Assembly: GCA_038869735.1 (NCBI GenBank)
Contig: JAWCQO010000002.1
Span: 73,337 to 137,336 of the forward strand
Length of the DNA: 64,000 nucleotides
Source of the DNA: Candidatus Anstonellales archaeon
GTDB lineage: Archaea > Micrarchaeota > Micrarchaeia > Anstonellales > CG1-02-47-40
Direction: 5' to 3'
Shown here: positions 25,656 to 31,760 of the stretch, one piece after another
Layout of the letters: each line of letters starts with the position of its first letter
How positions within the stretch are numbered: the first letter of the stretch is position 1
Made by a program: the position numbers and the translations under genes
Notes under the pieces: generated by a model
The model's database searches: none
Told to the model about the DNA's origin: nothing
Seen by the model: only the letters and a program-made list of their open reading frames with translations

Positions 25656-26006
25656 ATGGACGAGAAAAAAAAGGATCTTGCATTTATTTTACTTACTTCA
25701 GCAATCCTGTTGTTGCTTATCTATACAACTGGAGCTGGTGGTTTTAATCAAGCAGGAATAGCGTTAATCGCACTGGCTTTTTGTGGTGTGGTCAGTGGCT
25801 ATATTATGTTTGACATTTTTAGAAAAAACTTGACTGCAAAACAATCAGGGTTAGTTATGGCTGCATCATCCATCCTCGCAATTGTAGCCTCCTCAATCCT
25901 CATTCTTGGAAAATTATCCTTTTCCAGCCTCGGTTTCATATTTATATTATTCTTCCTCCTCCCACCAATAAGCGTGATTAGCAGAACACGCCTTGTCGAA
26001 TCTTGA
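25656..26006 (+). CDS. small membrane protein of unknown function
   Basis: A 116-residue protein with a charged N terminus (MDEKKKDLAF) and four predicted helices: about residues 8-27 (ILLTSAILLLLIYTT), 32-53, 64-85 and 88-106. No motif suggests a function. GGTG at 25646-25649 lies before ATG 25656, which is preferred over GTG 25647. Its stop is nine bases before the ileS start, so the two are likely co-transcribed. No family was recognised. Confidence 0.6.
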   Translation: MDEKKKDLAFILLTSAILLLLIYTTGAGGFNQAGIALIALAFCGVVSGYIMFDIFRKNLTAKQSGLVMAASSILAIVASSILILGKLSFSSLGFIFILFFLLPPISVISRTRLVES

Positions 26007-26014
26007 ATAGGGGC

Positions 26015-29000
26015 ATGATTGAAATGCACAATCAAATTTCTCTTGAACAAGAAATATTGGATTTTTGGAAAAAGGAGAAAATATACCAAAAGTCAAACAA
26101 TAAAAACAAAAATAACGAATTGTTTTTTTTCTGTGACGGCCCCCCTTACGCCACAGGACAGATACACCCCGGAACAGCATGGAATAAGTGTCTCAAAGAT
26201 TCAGTATGCAGATACAAGCGCATGTGTGGAAAATCTGTTCGCGCACAGCCAGGCTACGATACCCACGGCCTTCCCATAGAAGTAAAGGTGGAACAGGAGC
26301 TACAAATAACTTCCAAGAAGGAGATAGAAGAGCGGGTAGGTGTTGAAAAATTCATAAACAAATGTAGGGACTTTGCAACTCGCCATATCTCACTAATGAG
26401 TAGTCAGTTTGAGCGATGCGGAGTATGGATGGACTTTGATTCTCCTTATATAACTTACAAAGACAATTACATCGAATCTTCATGGGCAACTATAAAGAGG
26501 GCTTACGAGCGAGGGCTTCTGTCGCGCGGTCTATACGTGCTTCCATACTGCGCAAGATGTGAAACTACTCTCGCAAACTATGAATTAGAATATGAGGAGG
26601 ATACCGACCCAAGCATCTACGTAAAATTTAAGCTTCAAAACTCAGACGAATATTTGGTCATATGGACAACTACTCCATGGACACTCATATCCAATATGGC
26701 AGTGATGGTTCATCCTACATTAACATATGTTAAAGCAAAAGTAAACGGAGAAATTTGGATAATAGCAAAGGAGAGATTAGATGCAGTGATGGCTTTTGCC
26801 AATTCTTCAGCAATCATCATTGGGGAATTCTCTGGAAAAAAACTTGAGGGACTAAAATATGAACATCCACTACAAAAGAAGATAGGGAAGGAATATGAGC
26901 GAAAAGTCGTTTTGTCTGACGAATTTGTTAGTGTTGAAGACGGAAGCGGACTTGTTCACTGCGCACCAGGTCATGGCCCACAGGACTTCATAATAGGAAA
27001 GAGATTTGATATAGAAATATTCTCTCCGCTTGATTCTGCAGGAAAATTTACCTCTCAAGCAGGGGCTTATGCCGGCAAGAAGACAAATGAAGTTGAAGAG
27101 GAAATACTCTCTGACTTGGAGAATTCCGGTTGCCTTATCTATGCAGGAAAAATGAGGCATCGCTATCCTCATTGTTGGAGGTGCAAAACAAAGCTTATCT
27201 ACTTAGCTACTGAACAGTGGTTCATAACAATAAACAAGCTCAAGGATAGGATGCTGGAAGAGATAGAAGAATGCAAATGGCAGCCTCCATTTGCAAAGCT
27301 TAGGTTTATCGATTTTGTTCGGGCTGCCCCAGATTGGTGTATTTCACGTCAAAGATACTGGGGAATTCCGCTTCCTATTTGGGTTTGTAAAGATTGCAGC
27401 GCTTTTAAGGTTATAGGTTCGCTGGCAGAGCTTGGAGTGAACATCAATGATCTTCATAAGCCTAAGCTGGACAAAATAGAGCTTGACTGCGAGAAGTGCT
27501 CAGGCAAGATGAAAAGAACACCAGATATTCTAGATGTCTGGTTTGATTCGGGCAACGCAGTTTGGGCTCAGTTTGAGGGAAGCGAATACCCTTATCCTGC
27601 CCACCTCATCATAGAAGGAAAAGACCAAATTCGAGGCTGGTTCTACTCTCTTCTTGGAAGTGGCATTGTCCTCAAAGATAAAATACCATACGCTTCAGTT
27701 CTCATGCACGGATTTTTTGTAGATGAGAAAGGAGAAAAAATGTCAAAATCTCTTGGAAATTTTGTTCAACTTGAAGAAATCATAGGAAAGTATGGAGCAG
27801 ACCCATTTAGGCTATGGTGTCTCTCATCAACAATATGGGAAGATTTGAGATTCTCTTGGGATGAAATACGCGAAGCTTCGCGAGATGTTGGAATCCTCTA
27901 TAACCTCGGCATCTATCTTCAGCGTTTTTATCCTGAAAGCAAGATACCTTTCAAAAAGCCTACCAAACCAGAAGACATCTATATTCTCTCACGGCTTGAA
28001 AGCACTGCAAAAGAATGTACTGAAGCCTTTGAAGAATACAGAATCCACGACGCAGTAAAAGCTATCAGGAGATTTATAGTTGAGGACATCAGCCATTTCT
28101 ACCTCAAACTTATCAAAAAAAGAGATGACGAGGAGGCATTGTCATACCTCTATGGGTCGGTGCTTGGTGCCATAACGTTGGCTTCCCCAATAATACCGTT
28201 CACCTGCGAAGCAGTATATCAAAATTTTTTCAGAAGGTACGAAAAAGAAGAATCAGTGCATCTGCGGCCATGGTATACGGCAGATGATATGGGTATAAAT
28301 AGACTTATAGAGCGGAGAGTCAGCATTGTATTAGAAATAATAGCGGCTGCCACACACGCGCGACAAAAAGCAGGAATAAAACTTAGGTGGCCGCTTGAGG
28401 AGATGCTTATCTGGAGTGAAAACAGTGAGGTAAAGGACACTACAGTAGAACTTTCCCAGATATTATCCGAAATGGCTAATGTAAAGAAGGTTTCGTTTGC
28501 AAAGCCACATTCACTAACGTTTTCATTGACAATAAATTACGAAAAGATAAATGAAGAATTCAAACAAAATGCACAATGGATAATTGATAAGCTTAAAAAA
28601 GCGGACCCTGAAGTAATAGAAAGCGAACTTTTAAAAAATGGAATGTTCGTTCTTGAGAAATACAAGATTACTAAAGAAATGGTCTCAGTTGCACAGCAGG
28701 CAGCAGAGGGCTACGCCATATCTTCTTTTGATGACGGAATTGTTTATATAAAAACAAAAATGTCCAGACAACTTATGTGTGAAGCAATGATTCGTGAAGT
28801 TGCAAGGAGGGTACAGATCGAGCGCAAGAAACTAGGTCTCGTCGAAAAGAACAAGATATCGCTTGAAATCTCGTGTAGCAACGAACTCAGGTCCATGCTT
28901 GAAGAGGGCAGAGAACATCTTGCTACTCAGGTTAATGCTTCCTCTTTGGAGTTTTCCAAAGACCTAAAAAACGCCTCTCGTTTTGAAATAGACGGAGAAA

Positions 29001-29029
29001 TAGTCCTCATCAGAATTACAAGATTATGA
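26015..29029 (+). CDS. ileS: isoleucyl-tRNA synthetase
   Basis: Charges tRNA-Ile. A class I synthetase of about 1,004 residues with the signature GQIHPGTAWNK in HIGH position and GEKMSKSLGNF. The editing domain carries VIWTTTPWTLISNMAVMVHP. The catalytic region has YWGIPLPIW and DVWFDSGNAVW. Anticodon-binding and C-terminal domains follow (HDAVKAIRRFIVEDISHFYL, RQKAGIKLRWPLEEM). ATG 26015 is chosen; ATG 26024 is equally possible, and the TTG at 26003 would overlap the upstream gene. Confidence 0.96.
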   Translation: MIEMHNQISLEQEILDFWKKEKIYQKSNNKNKNNELFFFCDGPPYATGQIHPGTAWNKCLKDSVCRYKRMCGKSVRAQPGYDTHGLPIEVKVEQELQITSKKEIEERVGVEKFINKCRDFATRHISLMSSQFERCGVWMDFDSPYITYKDNYIESSWATIKRAYERGLLSRGLYVLPYCARCETTLANYELEYEEDTDPSIYVKFKLQNSDEYLVIWTTTPWTLISNMAVMVHPTLTYVKAKVNGEIWIIAKERLDAVMAFANSSAIIIGEFSGKKLEGLKYEHPLQKKIGKEYERKVVLSDEFVSVEDGSGLVHCAPGHGPQDFIIGKRFDIEIFSPLDSAGKFTSQAGAYAGKKTNEVEEEILSDLENSGCLIYAGKMRHRYPHCWRCKTKLIYLATEQWFITINKLKDRMLEEIEECKWQPPFAKLRFIDFVRAAPDWCISRQRYWGIPLPIWVCKDCSAFKVIGSLAELGVNINDLHKPKLDKIELDCEKCSGKMKRTPDILDVWFDSGNAVWAQFEGSEYPYPAHLIIEGKDQIRGWFYSLLGSGIVLKDKIPYASVLMHGFFVDEKGEKMSKSLGNFVQLEEIIGKYGADPFRLWCLSSTIWEDLRFSWDEIREASRDVGILYNLGIYLQRFYPESKIPFKKPTKPEDIYILSRLESTAKECTEAFEEYRIHDAVKAIRRFIVEDISHFYLKLIKKRDDEEALSYLYGSVLGAITLASPIIPFTCEAVYQNFFRRYEKEESVHLRPWYTADDMGINRLIERRVSIVLEIIAAATHARQKAGIKLRWPLEEMLIWSENSEVKDTTVELSQILSEMANVKKVSFAKPHSLTFSLTINYEKINEEFKQNAQWIIDKLKKADPEVIESELLKNGMFVLEKYKITKEMVSVAQQAAEGYAISSFDDGIVYIKTKMSRQLMCEAMIREVARRVQIERKKLGLVEKNKISLEISCSNELRSMLEEGREHLATQVNASSLEFSKDLKNASRFEIDGEIVLIRITRL

Positions 29030-29044
29030 TGGCAACCAACTTAC

Positions 29045-30025
29045 TTACACCATCCAGAAATTTACCCCAAAAATCTCGCCTCCGAATGCCCTCGAGAGCT
29101 GAATAACCGCAAACGCTGAAATTAAAAAGCCAAAGAATGGCATAATAATGTTCTGCATAGTAAGAAGAGAAAGCAATGCTGAGTATTTTGCAAAAATCTC
29201 AGCAACCCTATCAACAAACTTTTCGCTTCTTAATCTGTCTATTTGATGTCTTATGTTTGCGCCATCAGATAAATCAACTGATGCTATAGCCCCAAAATCC
29301 GCATGAAAGTCTGAAAGTGTACTTGAGAGCCCCTCGTACGCTATCCATCCATCAGATTCTAATGACAATGAAAGATAGATTGAAAGAGGAAAAAATATGT
29401 AGGCTCCAATCGCAAGTCCAATGAACGCTCCCCCTATTTTTCTTGTTGCAAAGAATGAACGAAAGAATATCCCAATAGGAAAAAGAAGAGAGAGTGCGTA
29501 TTTAGATAAAAAATCAACAATCAAATATTGAATATTCGTAGCCACCATAATGATCAGAAGATAAAACTGTATAAGCCACAGATTGGTTGCCGAAGATTCA
29601 AGGGAAAAAAACGGCTGCGCTGAAACAGAACCAAAAGTAAACGAGAGTTTAGAAACAAATCCTATTATGTTGGTTGTAACTGCACTCGACTGCATAAGCG
29701 CTGAGAGCTGGCTATAAACTTTGTTAAGGCTACAAAGAGACGTTGCAAGTATAGACGCATCTCCAAGACAACCATCAAAAAGAAGCCCTGGAGGTACACT
29801 CTCCTTTCCTAGCGAATCTATTATGGTGGTAATCGTAAATGCCCCTCCAACAAGAGCTCCATTTATTATCGACTGAAAGAGCTCCTCAAAACCAAAAGCG
29901 CTTAGGCGCTTTGACGAAAACGCCTTCCCTAAGCCTATCAAAATACCGGAAATTATTATCGATATCAGAACTAGCGTTGAAGCAATAGCATAGCTTGCTC
30001 TTGCAAAGCTTTCATCCACTATCAT
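29045..30025 (-). CDS. polytopic membrane protein, VirB6/CedA-like in layout
   Basis: A 326-residue protein with about six to seven hydrophobic helices: residues 10-34, 45-66, 150-175, 178-192, 198-222 and 288-320. A long external-looking loop (about 70-145) contains two Cys (DGCLG, SLCSL), and a second loop lies at 225-285. Size and topology match VirB6-type channel subunits of type IV secretion systems and the crenarchaeal CedA DNA importer. No sequence signature proves this. It is the last gene of a three-gene operon, 20 bases after the 81-residue two-helix protein. An unrelated channel protein remains possible. Confidence 0.6.
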   Translation of the reverse strand: MIVDESFARASYAIASTLVLISIIISGILIGLGKAFSSKRLSAFGFEELFQSIINGALVGGAFTITTIIDSLGKESVPPGLLFDGCLGDASILATSLCSLNKVYSQLSALMQSSAVTTNIIGFVSKLSFTFGSVSAQPFFSLESSATNLWLIQFYLLIIMVATNIQYLIVDFLSKYALSLLFPIGIFFRSFFATRKIGGAFIGLAIGAYIFFPLSIYLSLSLESDGWIAYEGLSSTLSDFHADFGAIASVDLSDGANIRHQIDRLRSEKFVDRVAEIFAKYSALLSLLTMQNIIMPFFGFLISAFAVIQLSRAFGGEIFGVNFWMV

Positions 30026-30045
30026 AAGCCTCGAGTCGGTTTGAG

Positions 30046-30291
30046 CTATTGAAGTAGTTTAAGCGAAGTGTCCCGTATAATAACCGCAGCCCCAAGTATA
30101 GCTGCAACAATAATGCCGCCGACAATCATCCCAATTGCAACGCTCTGCCACCTTCCTTTGACTTCGGACGGTTGAGTTTGTGCAACGCCGTATACTATAC
30201 CTCCAAGCACAATAAGTATAAGCGATATTACAGGTCCGATGTTAGTAAGAGTGGCCTGTATTCCAGCAAGAAGCGTTTCTATATATGCCAT
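30046..30291 (-). CDS. two-helix small membrane protein, VirB2/CedA1-like in layout
   Basis: An 81-residue protein with two helices: residues 16-37 (IGPVISLILIVLGGIVYGVA) and 51-72 (AIGMIVGGIIVAAILGAAVI). They are joined by a polar hairpin QTQPSEVKGRWQS. This is the plan of VirB2/TrbC pilins and of CedA1: hydrophobic hairpin, short polar loop, small-residue-rich helices. A strong GGAGGTAAG precedes the ATG, suggesting high expression as expected of a pilin-like subunit. It lies five bases after the upstream gene. The family assignment is inferred from shape and neighbours only. Confidence 0.6.
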   Translation of the reverse strand: MAYIETLLAGIQATLTNIGPVISLILIVLGGIVYGVAQTQPSEVKGRWQSVAIGMIVGGIIVAAILGAAVIIRDTSLKLLQ

Positions 30292-30296
30292 TTTTC

Positions 30297-30839
30297 TTAC
30301 CTCCTAACCAAAAATACAAACATCAGTGCTCCAGCCGCAGCAAAGATAGCAGAACCTATTGACAACAAACCACCCAACATTATACTTGAAATTACTGCGA
30401 TTACCAAGACATCAGTGGTTGCATTTATATTATTGTAAACATCAATCGCTATTGTAATAAAGATACCAATTGCAGAACCAAAAAGGCCACATATAGCACC
30501 CGTAAAGGCATTTACGCCTCTCTCCATTACTCGTCCCTCCAAATTTCTAAGTACAAAAGCAGAGATCATACCCCCAAGAAAAGATGCTACGCAGATTGCA
30601 GGAAACAAAATCCACGAGTAGACTCTTAATTCTGAAACTCTTATAAGTGAAACGGTCAGCTTCACAATATGAAATGCCACTATTATTGAGCTGCCCATTC
30701 CGGCAGCAAGTAAAATATTTGTTATTGGCCACATTTTTGCAGAAGGAGTATCCATTGCAACCTGACTGATACCATAATCGGGTGACCCTTCTTCTTTTCT
30801 TTTTTGCGAAGGAGGCATAATTCCTTTACTCTCTGACAT
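30297..30839 (-). CDS. four-helix membrane protein, first gene of the putative DNA-transfer module
   Basis: A 180-residue protein. Residues 1-36 are polar and Pro/Lys-rich (MPPSQKRKEEGSPDYG) and probably cytoplasmic. Four helices follow at about 38-62, 73-97, 109-133 and 143-178, rich in Gly, Ala and Ser. It does not match a family known to me. It is followed after five bases by the VirB2-like gene and then the VirB6-like gene, all on the minus strand, and is divergent from the NFACT-R gene. A role in the same membrane complex is inferred from the operon. Confidence 0.55.
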   Translation of the reverse strand: MSESKGIMPPSQKRKEEGSPDYGISQVAMDTPSAKMWPITNILLAAGMGSSIIVAFHIVKLTVSLIRVSELRVYSWILFPAICVASFLGGMISAFVLRNLEGRVMERGVNAFTGAICGLFGSAIGIFITIAIDVYNNINATTDVLVIAVISSIMLGGLLSIGSAIFAAAGALMFVFLVRR

Positions 30840-30914
30840 TTTTTAAATGTAATGTAGGTCTTGAGTCTCAAAAACAATACAGCTTTTAAGCAATCTCAAA
30901 TTAGTTATATTACA

Positions 30915-31760
30915 ATGGCAAAGGATGAGAAAACGATTGTTGAGCTAGATGCATCAAAAAGCGCTCAAGAAAATGCTTCAACTTATTTTGAGATGGCAAA
31001 AAAGGCAAAAGTAAAACTTTCTAGAGTAAAGGCCGCCCTTGCTCAGAGTATCCTTGAACTTGAGAAACTAAAATCAGAAAAGCAAAAAGATAGGGGGTCC
31101 AATAGCTTAAGGGATTCTTCATCCCAACTTCTAAGTCTCTTTAGTATAAAAAGAAAGAAAGAATGGTTTGAGCAATTTCACTTCTTTGTCACTCCTCAAA
31201 AAAAACTCGTAATTGCCGGAAGAAGCAGTAAGCAAAACGACCTAATCTATTCGAAATATATAGAAGACAACGACCTTTTTTTTCACGCAGATATCCAAGG
31301 AGCTCCCGCAACGGTACTAAAAAATGGGCTGCATGCCGATAATCCAGAAAAGCTCCTTAGTGCTCAGTTTGCGGCTTCTTATTCTTCTGCTTGGAAGGTA
31401 GGAGCAGCAAGTGTAGATGTCTATGCAGTAAGAAAAAATCAACTTTCAAAGCACTCACATGGAGGATTTATTCCCAAGGGTGGCTTTGCAATCACCGGAG
31501 AACGGGAGTGGTTTAGAAAAATCCCTCTGGGTTTAAAACTGTATGTTGATGAAAAAGGAATTCCACGAGTAGTTCCTGAAAAAATGAATTTAATGCACAA
31601 CTCAGTTCTAATCTATCCTAGGGGAAAAGATGACAAGCAGGAAGCTGCAAAAAAGATTGCTAAAGCACTCTCTTGCGATAAGGAAGAAATACTTTTACTT
31701 CTGCCTTCTGGAAAGTTTAGGGTAATTTCAGAATTTACCGATAAAGGAGCGAGGGGCTAA
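30915..31760 (+). CDS. NFACT-R domain protein (C-terminal half of RqcH/NEMF)
   Basis: A 281-residue protein. Residues 5-60 match the helical segment that follows the NFACT-N domain in RqcH (IVELDASKSAQENASTYFEM, KKAKVKLSRVKAAL). The rest is the NFACT-R (DUF814) domain: WFEQFHFFVTPQKKLVIAGR, YIEDNDLFFHADIQGAPATV, SHGGFIPKGGFAITGEREWF. Full RqcH/NEMF binds the 60S/50S-tRNA complex and is about 600 residues or more. Here the N-terminal catalytic NFACT-N part is absent. ATG 30915, about 30 bases after a TATA-like TTTTAAGC, is preferred to the upstream start at 30861. Confidence 0.88.
   Translation: MAKDEKTIVELDASKSAQENASTYFEMAKKAKVKLSRVKAALAQSILELEKLKSEKQKDRGSNSLRDSSSQLLSLFSIKRKKEWFEQFHFFVTPQKKLVIAGRSSKQNDLIYSKYIEDNDLFFHADIQGAPATVLKNGLHADNPEKLLSAQFAASYSSAWKVGAASVDVYAVRKNQLSKHSHGGFIPKGGFAITGEREWFRKIPLGLKLYVDEKGIPRVVPEKMNLMHNSVLIYPRGKDDKQEAAKKIAKALSCDKEEILLLLPSGKFRVISEFTDKGARG

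Follow-up and report, generated by a model that had tools for sequence, protein, structure and literature searches.

A probable pilus-and-channel operon of a minimal, chromosomal T4SS-like machine in Micrarchaeota

Introduction

Reduced systems resembling type IV secretion systems (T4SSs) are described in Crenarchaea, where the Ced system of Sulfolobales comprises CedA, CedA1, CedB, CedD and CedE (PMC9905601, PMC11868833) and the Ted system of Thermoproteales comprises TedA, TedB and TedC. Resemblance of the CedA N-terminus to the pilin CedA1 is a hallmark of Ced (Beltran et al., PMC9905601), and CedB and CedD each hold part of the VirB4 N-terminal domain (PMC11868833). In bacteria a VirB3-VirB4 fusion is known, and the VirB6 of R388 is a homopentamer that meets six-fold VirB3/VirB4, a five-to-six symmetry mismatch (PMC12624023), while Rickettsia carries five diverged VirB6 genes (PMC2653234). 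Beyond Ced and Ted, the open-access literature searched (bioRxiv aside) covers the T4SSs of Patescibacteria (PMC12102498) and giant VirB4 proteins of Nanohaloarchaea (PMC10266531), and describes neither a T4SS-like system nor a six-VirB6 array in Micrarchaeota.

The window analysed here is a stretch of 64,000 nucleotides from the 0.88 Mb genome of Candidatus Anstonellales archaeon (contig JAWCQO010000002.1), a member of the phylum Micrarchaeota, named Microcaldota by NCBI. An earlier note, made from the window's sequence, had likened a three-gene operon within it to a VirB2/VirB6 module of the Ced kind, an idea that now finds support in pilin family matches (T4SS_pilin and TrbC/VirB2), a structural match to VirB6 (TrwI) and an operonic ATPase in relatives. 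We put at roughly 80% the probability that these three genes supply the pilus and channel part of a minimal chromosomal T4SS-like machine of Micrarchaeota, hereafter system 1; that system 1 is a T4SS-like machine at all, we regard as very likely. Both judgements rest on the parts list, on linkage in relatives and on homology of the ATPase and the VirB4 N-domain protein, which is to say on sequence, synteny and predicted structure, from which we infer a single complex.

Like Ced, system 1 combines a two-helix pilin lacking a signal peptide with a polytopic VirB6-like channel whose N-terminus may be weakly pilin-like; its ATPase is of the CedB class by best family model, its genes are chromosomal with no recognised relaxase, and its VirB4 N-domain is not in one piece. 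It departs from Ced in its CedB score (87 vs 700 bits), in a VirB4 N-domain that forms its own gene fused to a membrane hairpin, in an additional winged-helix coiled-coil gene and in its phylum. With Ted it shares the minimal VirB2/VirB6/VirB4 set, although VirB4 is split in system 1; a cleavable signal peptide is a feature of TedC and apparently also of the system-1 pilins of family f6 and of those of a second machine, system 2, described below. Likeness to CedA1, TedC and CedA is here a matter of Pfam models and of predicted folds. Because of the low CedB score and the division of VirB4 over two genes, we would class system 1 as a new variant of the reduced Ced/Ted-like T4SS and not as a member of Ced.

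Results

The operon lies on the minus strand and consists of genes for a 180-aa protein (30297..30839), an 81-aa two-helix hairpin protein (30046..30291) and a 326-aa polytopic membrane protein (29045..30025), with intergenic gaps of 5 and 20 bases, the layout that the earlier note had given. The very strong Shine-Dalgarno sequence claimed for the 81-aa gene was likewise read directly, as AGGAGGT on the minus strand (30299..30305), 7 bases 5' of the start codon and overlapping the stop codon of the 180-aa gene; hydropathy and the predicted model are consistent with the description of the hairpin and of the polytopic protein. At the thresholds used, the 81-aa protein was matched in 56 of 59 order relatives and the 326-aa family in 58 of 59 (a count that includes paralogs), and this conservation indicates that these are real genes rather than chance open reading frames.

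Downstream and convergent with the operon lies a gene that we take to encode isoleucyl-tRNA synthetase (IleRS; 26003-29029), and upstream, divergent from it, one presumably encoding an NFACT-like protein (30861-31760), both named from sequence reading. The operon sits between the same two genes in a relative from the same family (G001). Such housekeeping neighbours, in both genomes, argue against an integrated conjugative plasmid or integrative element, as do the order-wide presence of system-1 genes and the phylum-wide presence of homologous pilins. A genome search for the relaxase family PF03432 returned no match, which speaks against the same reading and favours domestication over a mobile origin. 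Archaeal conjugative plasmids do carry VirB4-like ATPases (PMC12857230), but we consider an origin of this kind very improbable.

Alignment of the 81-aa protein, whose identity across the order is ~42-80%, reveals a helix, a conserved charged loop (P41...K/R-G-K/R-W) and a second helix, with no signal peptide, and its profile matches 240 of 301 phylum genomes (E<=1e-5). The T4SS_pilin family (PF18895) matched 21 of 30 homologs (best 2.5e-5) and TrbC/VirB2 (PF04956) matched 4 of 30 (best 9.5e-5), against approximate reversed controls of 0/8 and 1/8, respectively; the window pilin itself matched T4SS_pilin weakly (E 0.013). Two-helix hairpins are easy to match, which counts against our reading, and a sequence-profile search of the PDB with the pilin gave chance matches to hydrophobic helices only, with neither CedA1 nor TedC listed. 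Homology between the system-1 pilin and the system-2 pilins is clear (hhalign E 1.5e-39), and 8 of 15 system-2 pilin rows matched TrbC/VirB2 (best 7.2e-6), two of the 15 also being in the system-1 alignment and one being the window pilin. The system-2 pilins carry hydrophobic N-terminal leaders that look like signal peptides, and the system-1 pilins of family f6 appear to do likewise. Taken together, these matches mark the 81-aa product as a pilin of the VirB2 type. Further pilin-like genes of this genome (G000:C2:247-450, G000:C2:58647-58829 and G000:C11:4306-4491) lie far from the VirB6 arrays, and such extra genes form tandem groups in other genomes.

A strong ribosome-binding site and high pilin conservation are what an abundant structural protein would show, and the operon could on these grounds encode a short adhesive or conductive pilus with its assembly platform, through which no macromolecule passes. 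In archaea, however, adhesion pili normally belong to the type IV class and are served by different ATPases, and a VirB6 channel together with an ATPase of the HerA/VirB4 class are parts of DNA or protein translocation, so we hold a purely adhesive or conductive role to be rather improbable.

For the 326-aa protein, the matches comprise a best ortholog-like one plus many paralogs, and viral contigs contained no relative of it. Its AlphaFold2 model (pLDDT 83, pTM 0.75) found its best VIA-align match in R388 TrwI/VirB6 (8rt9_F, Z 10.4, 236 residues, rmsd 5.6), with two further TrwI/VirB6 matches (8rtd_H, Z 9.8; 7o3v_J, Z 9.6), the three covering 205-236 residues within model positions 1-318. TrwI accounts for three of the five tied top matches and for the most residues aligned among them; a designed helical repeat ties with it, and a Z of 10.4 is within reach of helical models by chance. 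Foldseek returned nothing at E<0.001 with this model, and a Pfam scan of the homologs gave no family, PF04610 being unmatched as well. The predicted fold nevertheless leads us to regard the protein as VirB6-like. Its N-terminus aligned with the pilin over 72 columns at hhalign E 3.4e-4 (reversed control E 0.05) with a probability of only 38%, a resemblance that is no more than suggestive of the Ced hallmark.

The lack of a Pfam family for the 326-aa protein would also suit an operon for some unrelated membrane transporter, next to which a hairpin gene lies by chance. Profile searches matched no unrelated family of transporters, VirB6 stands among the top structural matches, and in many genera the genes recur beside a VirB4 motor that is split, all of which makes a transporter hardly credible.

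That motor is apparent in relatives, where three genes come directly after the pilin-VirB6 pair: the first encodes a membrane protein of 259 aa, the second an ATPase of 477 aa and the third a soluble protein of 238 aa. Eighty named loci were fetched with the ATPase and inspected for gene order: eight show pilin, VirB6, VirB4 N-domain protein (VirB4N), ATPase and winged-helix protein in that order (L117, L129, L133, L135, L138, L148, L151 and L153, with the last cassette gene of L129 cut by the contig end), L041 also has a contiguous five-gene operon, and many further loci among the 80 keep the same order without the pilin. Pilin and VirB6 ortholog lie <=2.5 kb apart in 24 genomes by our own count, and the ATPase was matched in 59 of 59 order relatives at the thresholds used.

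In the source genome the system-1 motor cassette is unlinked to the trio, which counts against our reading. It lies on another contig (G000:C5:49680-52662; L057 7679-10662, minus strand), where the gene for a 258-aa VirB4N protein is joined by those for an ATPase of 499 aa resembling CedB/VirB4 and for a winged-helix protein of 238 aa with a coiled coil. An ATPase encoded elsewhere, as the earlier note had suggested, is present, but it is not unpaired, standing as it does with the VirB4 N-domain and winged-helix proteins. Its best NCBIfam model is CedB (8.8e-25), followed by VirB4 CD1110, CedD, TraC and HerA; Pfam matches were DUF87, AAA_10, P-loop_TraG and TrwB, and PDB profile matches were HerA and VirB4 (4ag5). 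Against the 700-bit cut-off of the CedB equivalog model NF041017 the ATPase scored 87.4 bits, and a search of the genome with that model gave 86.9 and 69.4 bits. A tree of 81 ATPases separates a system-1 from a system-2 clade (support 98/90), with the C5 ATPase of the source genome in the former and its C1 ATPase in the latter; these are the only two VirB4-class motors noted in the genome.

The VirB4N protein was identified by structure search, since a PDB profile search with its alignment gave chance matches only. Its AlphaFold2 model (pLDDT 86) retrieved R388 VirB4 or inner-membrane-complex entries at all of Foldseek ranks 1-10 (probability 1.00), and VIA aligned it to the R388 inner membrane complex at Z 12.8 and rmsd 2.5 over 150 residues (chain 221-380). 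System 1 resembles the bacterial R388/VirB T4SS in the predicted folds of both VirB6 (TrwI) and the VirB4 (TrwK) N-domain. The 258-aa protein would unite a VirB3-like membrane hairpin with a portion of the N-terminal domain of VirB4, the N-terminal helix pair being VirB3-like by position only. As the N-domain (258/259 aa) and the ATPase are separate genes, VirB4 comes in two gene pieces, unlike a canonical VirB4, in which a single polypeptide carries both domains. Two tandem VirB4 N-domain genes precede a single ATPase gene in L149, L155, L178, L183 and L187, an arrangement reminiscent of CedB and CedD with their different parts of the VirB4 N-domain.

The 180-aa protein, which the earlier note had taken for a possible new part of the machine, has a different distribution. 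It was matched in 11 of 59 order genomes, and the complete operons of family f8 lack it. Only families f1 and f5 have homologs of it ahead of the pilin gene, the VirB6 gene or both, those in one other family being weak; a core role was accordingly rejected. DUF5518 matched 7 of 14 aligned homologs (best E 3.8e-7), and the protein is probably a four-helix, DUF5518-like membrane accessory restricted to certain lineages. Conservation of the trio in relatives thus holds for the pilin and VirB6 genes, which share one operon with the ATPase, and not for the 180-aa gene.

Paralogs led to a second T4SS-like system in the source genome, system 2, for which we located two VirB6 paralog arrays (L032:7140-13772, minus strand; array b, L033:9524-19700, minus strand) and a single motor cassette (L058:5015-11239, minus strand). 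That cassette includes a ~850-aa membrane protein to which no family is assigned, a two-helix protein and a winged-helix coiled-coil protein, and throughout the phylum all three are conserved along with the ATPase. On one contig of isolate Sv174 (L183) the genes for six VirB6 paralogs are contiguous with those for two pilins with leaders, a pair of VirB4N proteins, the ATPase, and two-helix, winged-helix and ~800-aa proteins, which indicates that the parts of system 2 belong together. The C-terminal ~98 aa of this system's ATPase form a separate open reading frame directly after the main one in L161 (10595-10891, plus strand), and also in L063, L152, L162, L171, L174, L182 and L188, marking either a split gene or a recoding or frameshift site.

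By profile count, each of 27 complete arrays has exactly six VirB6 members (9/9 in a first set, 18/18 in a second; L032, L033, L037-L040, L042, L043, L183, L203-L209, L211-L217 and L219-L222); one more array, starting 128 bases from a contig edge, has five, and one fetched region had no VirB6 match. In a tree of 54 VirB6 proteins, members group by position 1 to 6 and not by genome, and each position splits into array types a and b, so that orthology follows position across genera. Support is mostly high; the exceptions are position 4, where the Sv174 protein groups only loosely, and some of the deep forks, which are weak. The simplest reading is of an ancestral six-gene array that was later duplicated whole and whose products are not interchangeable. 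The array is duplicated in many genomes, one copy bearing giant cysteine-rich domains: in the source genome three array-b paralogs of 680-834 aa (L033:12852-19700, minus strand) contain large cysteine-rich inserted or N-terminal regions, and a 1431-aa cysteine-rich protein follows the array (L033:5224-9519), while array-b members reach 900-1400 aa in other genomes.

The exact number of six per array and the grouping by position suggest that the system-2 channel could be an obligate hetero-hexamer, its six VirB6 subunits unable to replace one another, their genes always in the same order and the ring matched to a six-fold VirB4 motor, a proposal that we favour by a slim measure. R388 differs in having a VirB6 homopentamer, in contrast to the six different VirB6 genes of system 2. 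The rvhB6a-e genes of Rickettsiales (PMC2653234) are similar in that VirB6 paralogs have diverged and gained long extra regions in cells that associate with a host, but they are five and bacterial, whereas the six of system 2 keep their positional order across the sampled families in an array that is duplicated. Families f9 and f10 (G010, G016 and G018) show weak or no system-1 pilin matches, yet have complete six-gene arrays, a pattern that could mean that system 2 is the older of the two machines or the one less easily lost.

Discussion

We propose that in system 1 the 81-aa pilin would be inserted unprocessed, like CedA1, and that the 326-aa VirB6-like channel would be the base on which a pilus is built. 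The hairpin/VirB4N protein may hold the ATPase ring beneath this channel, and the ATPase would power both extraction of pilin into a short pilus and movement of the substrate, likely single-stranded DNA drawn in from contacting cells as in Ced and Ted. Our grounds for both substrate and direction are a CedB-class motor, an unprocessed pilin, genes that lie on the chromosome and a genome in which no PF03432 relaxase was matched: the substrate is probably DNA, and for transfer running mainly inward we would offer even odds. Uptake of DNA as a source of purines is weakened as an explanation by PurM/PurL, since a genome that makes its own purines does not demand DNA as food.

The same machine could be put to the opposite use, delivering protein or nucleic acid into, or drawing metabolites from, the archaeal host of an episymbiont. 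This is the main rival because of lifestyle and precedent: Micrarchaeota are DPANN archaea with small genomes, Patescibacteria have chromosomal relaxase-free T4SSs and pilin arrays (PMC12102498), and Nanohaloarchaea have giant proteins with VirB4 domains (PMC10266531), a host-directed use having been proposed in both cases. The very large cysteine-rich regions of system-2 VirB6 paralogs would also suit cell contact. However, neither effectors nor a coupling protein were identified, system 1 has no large extracellular domains, and the best model for its ATPase is CedB, part of a DNA importer. Delivery to a host is accordingly ranked second, as an unlikely but serious alternative, and DNA import remains our most likely reading of system 1.

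The finding would extend machinery of the Ced/Ted kind to a DPANN phylum, where nearly all of these uncultivated, ultrasmall archaea would carry it on the chromosome. It parallels the T4SSs of Patescibacteria (CPR), an ultrasmall epibiotic lineage in which such systems are likewise chromosomal, lineage-wide and mostly relaxase-free, with VirB2-like pilins and pilin arrays (PMC12102498); those systems are of the bacterial MPF-FATA type, and a six-gene VirB6 array is not described there. The six-gene arrays would make the question of symmetry between VirB6 and VirB3/VirB4 testable in a natural system whose subunits are genetically distinguishable, and system 1 offers a concrete candidate for the exchange of DNA or other material between these archaea and their neighbours or hosts.
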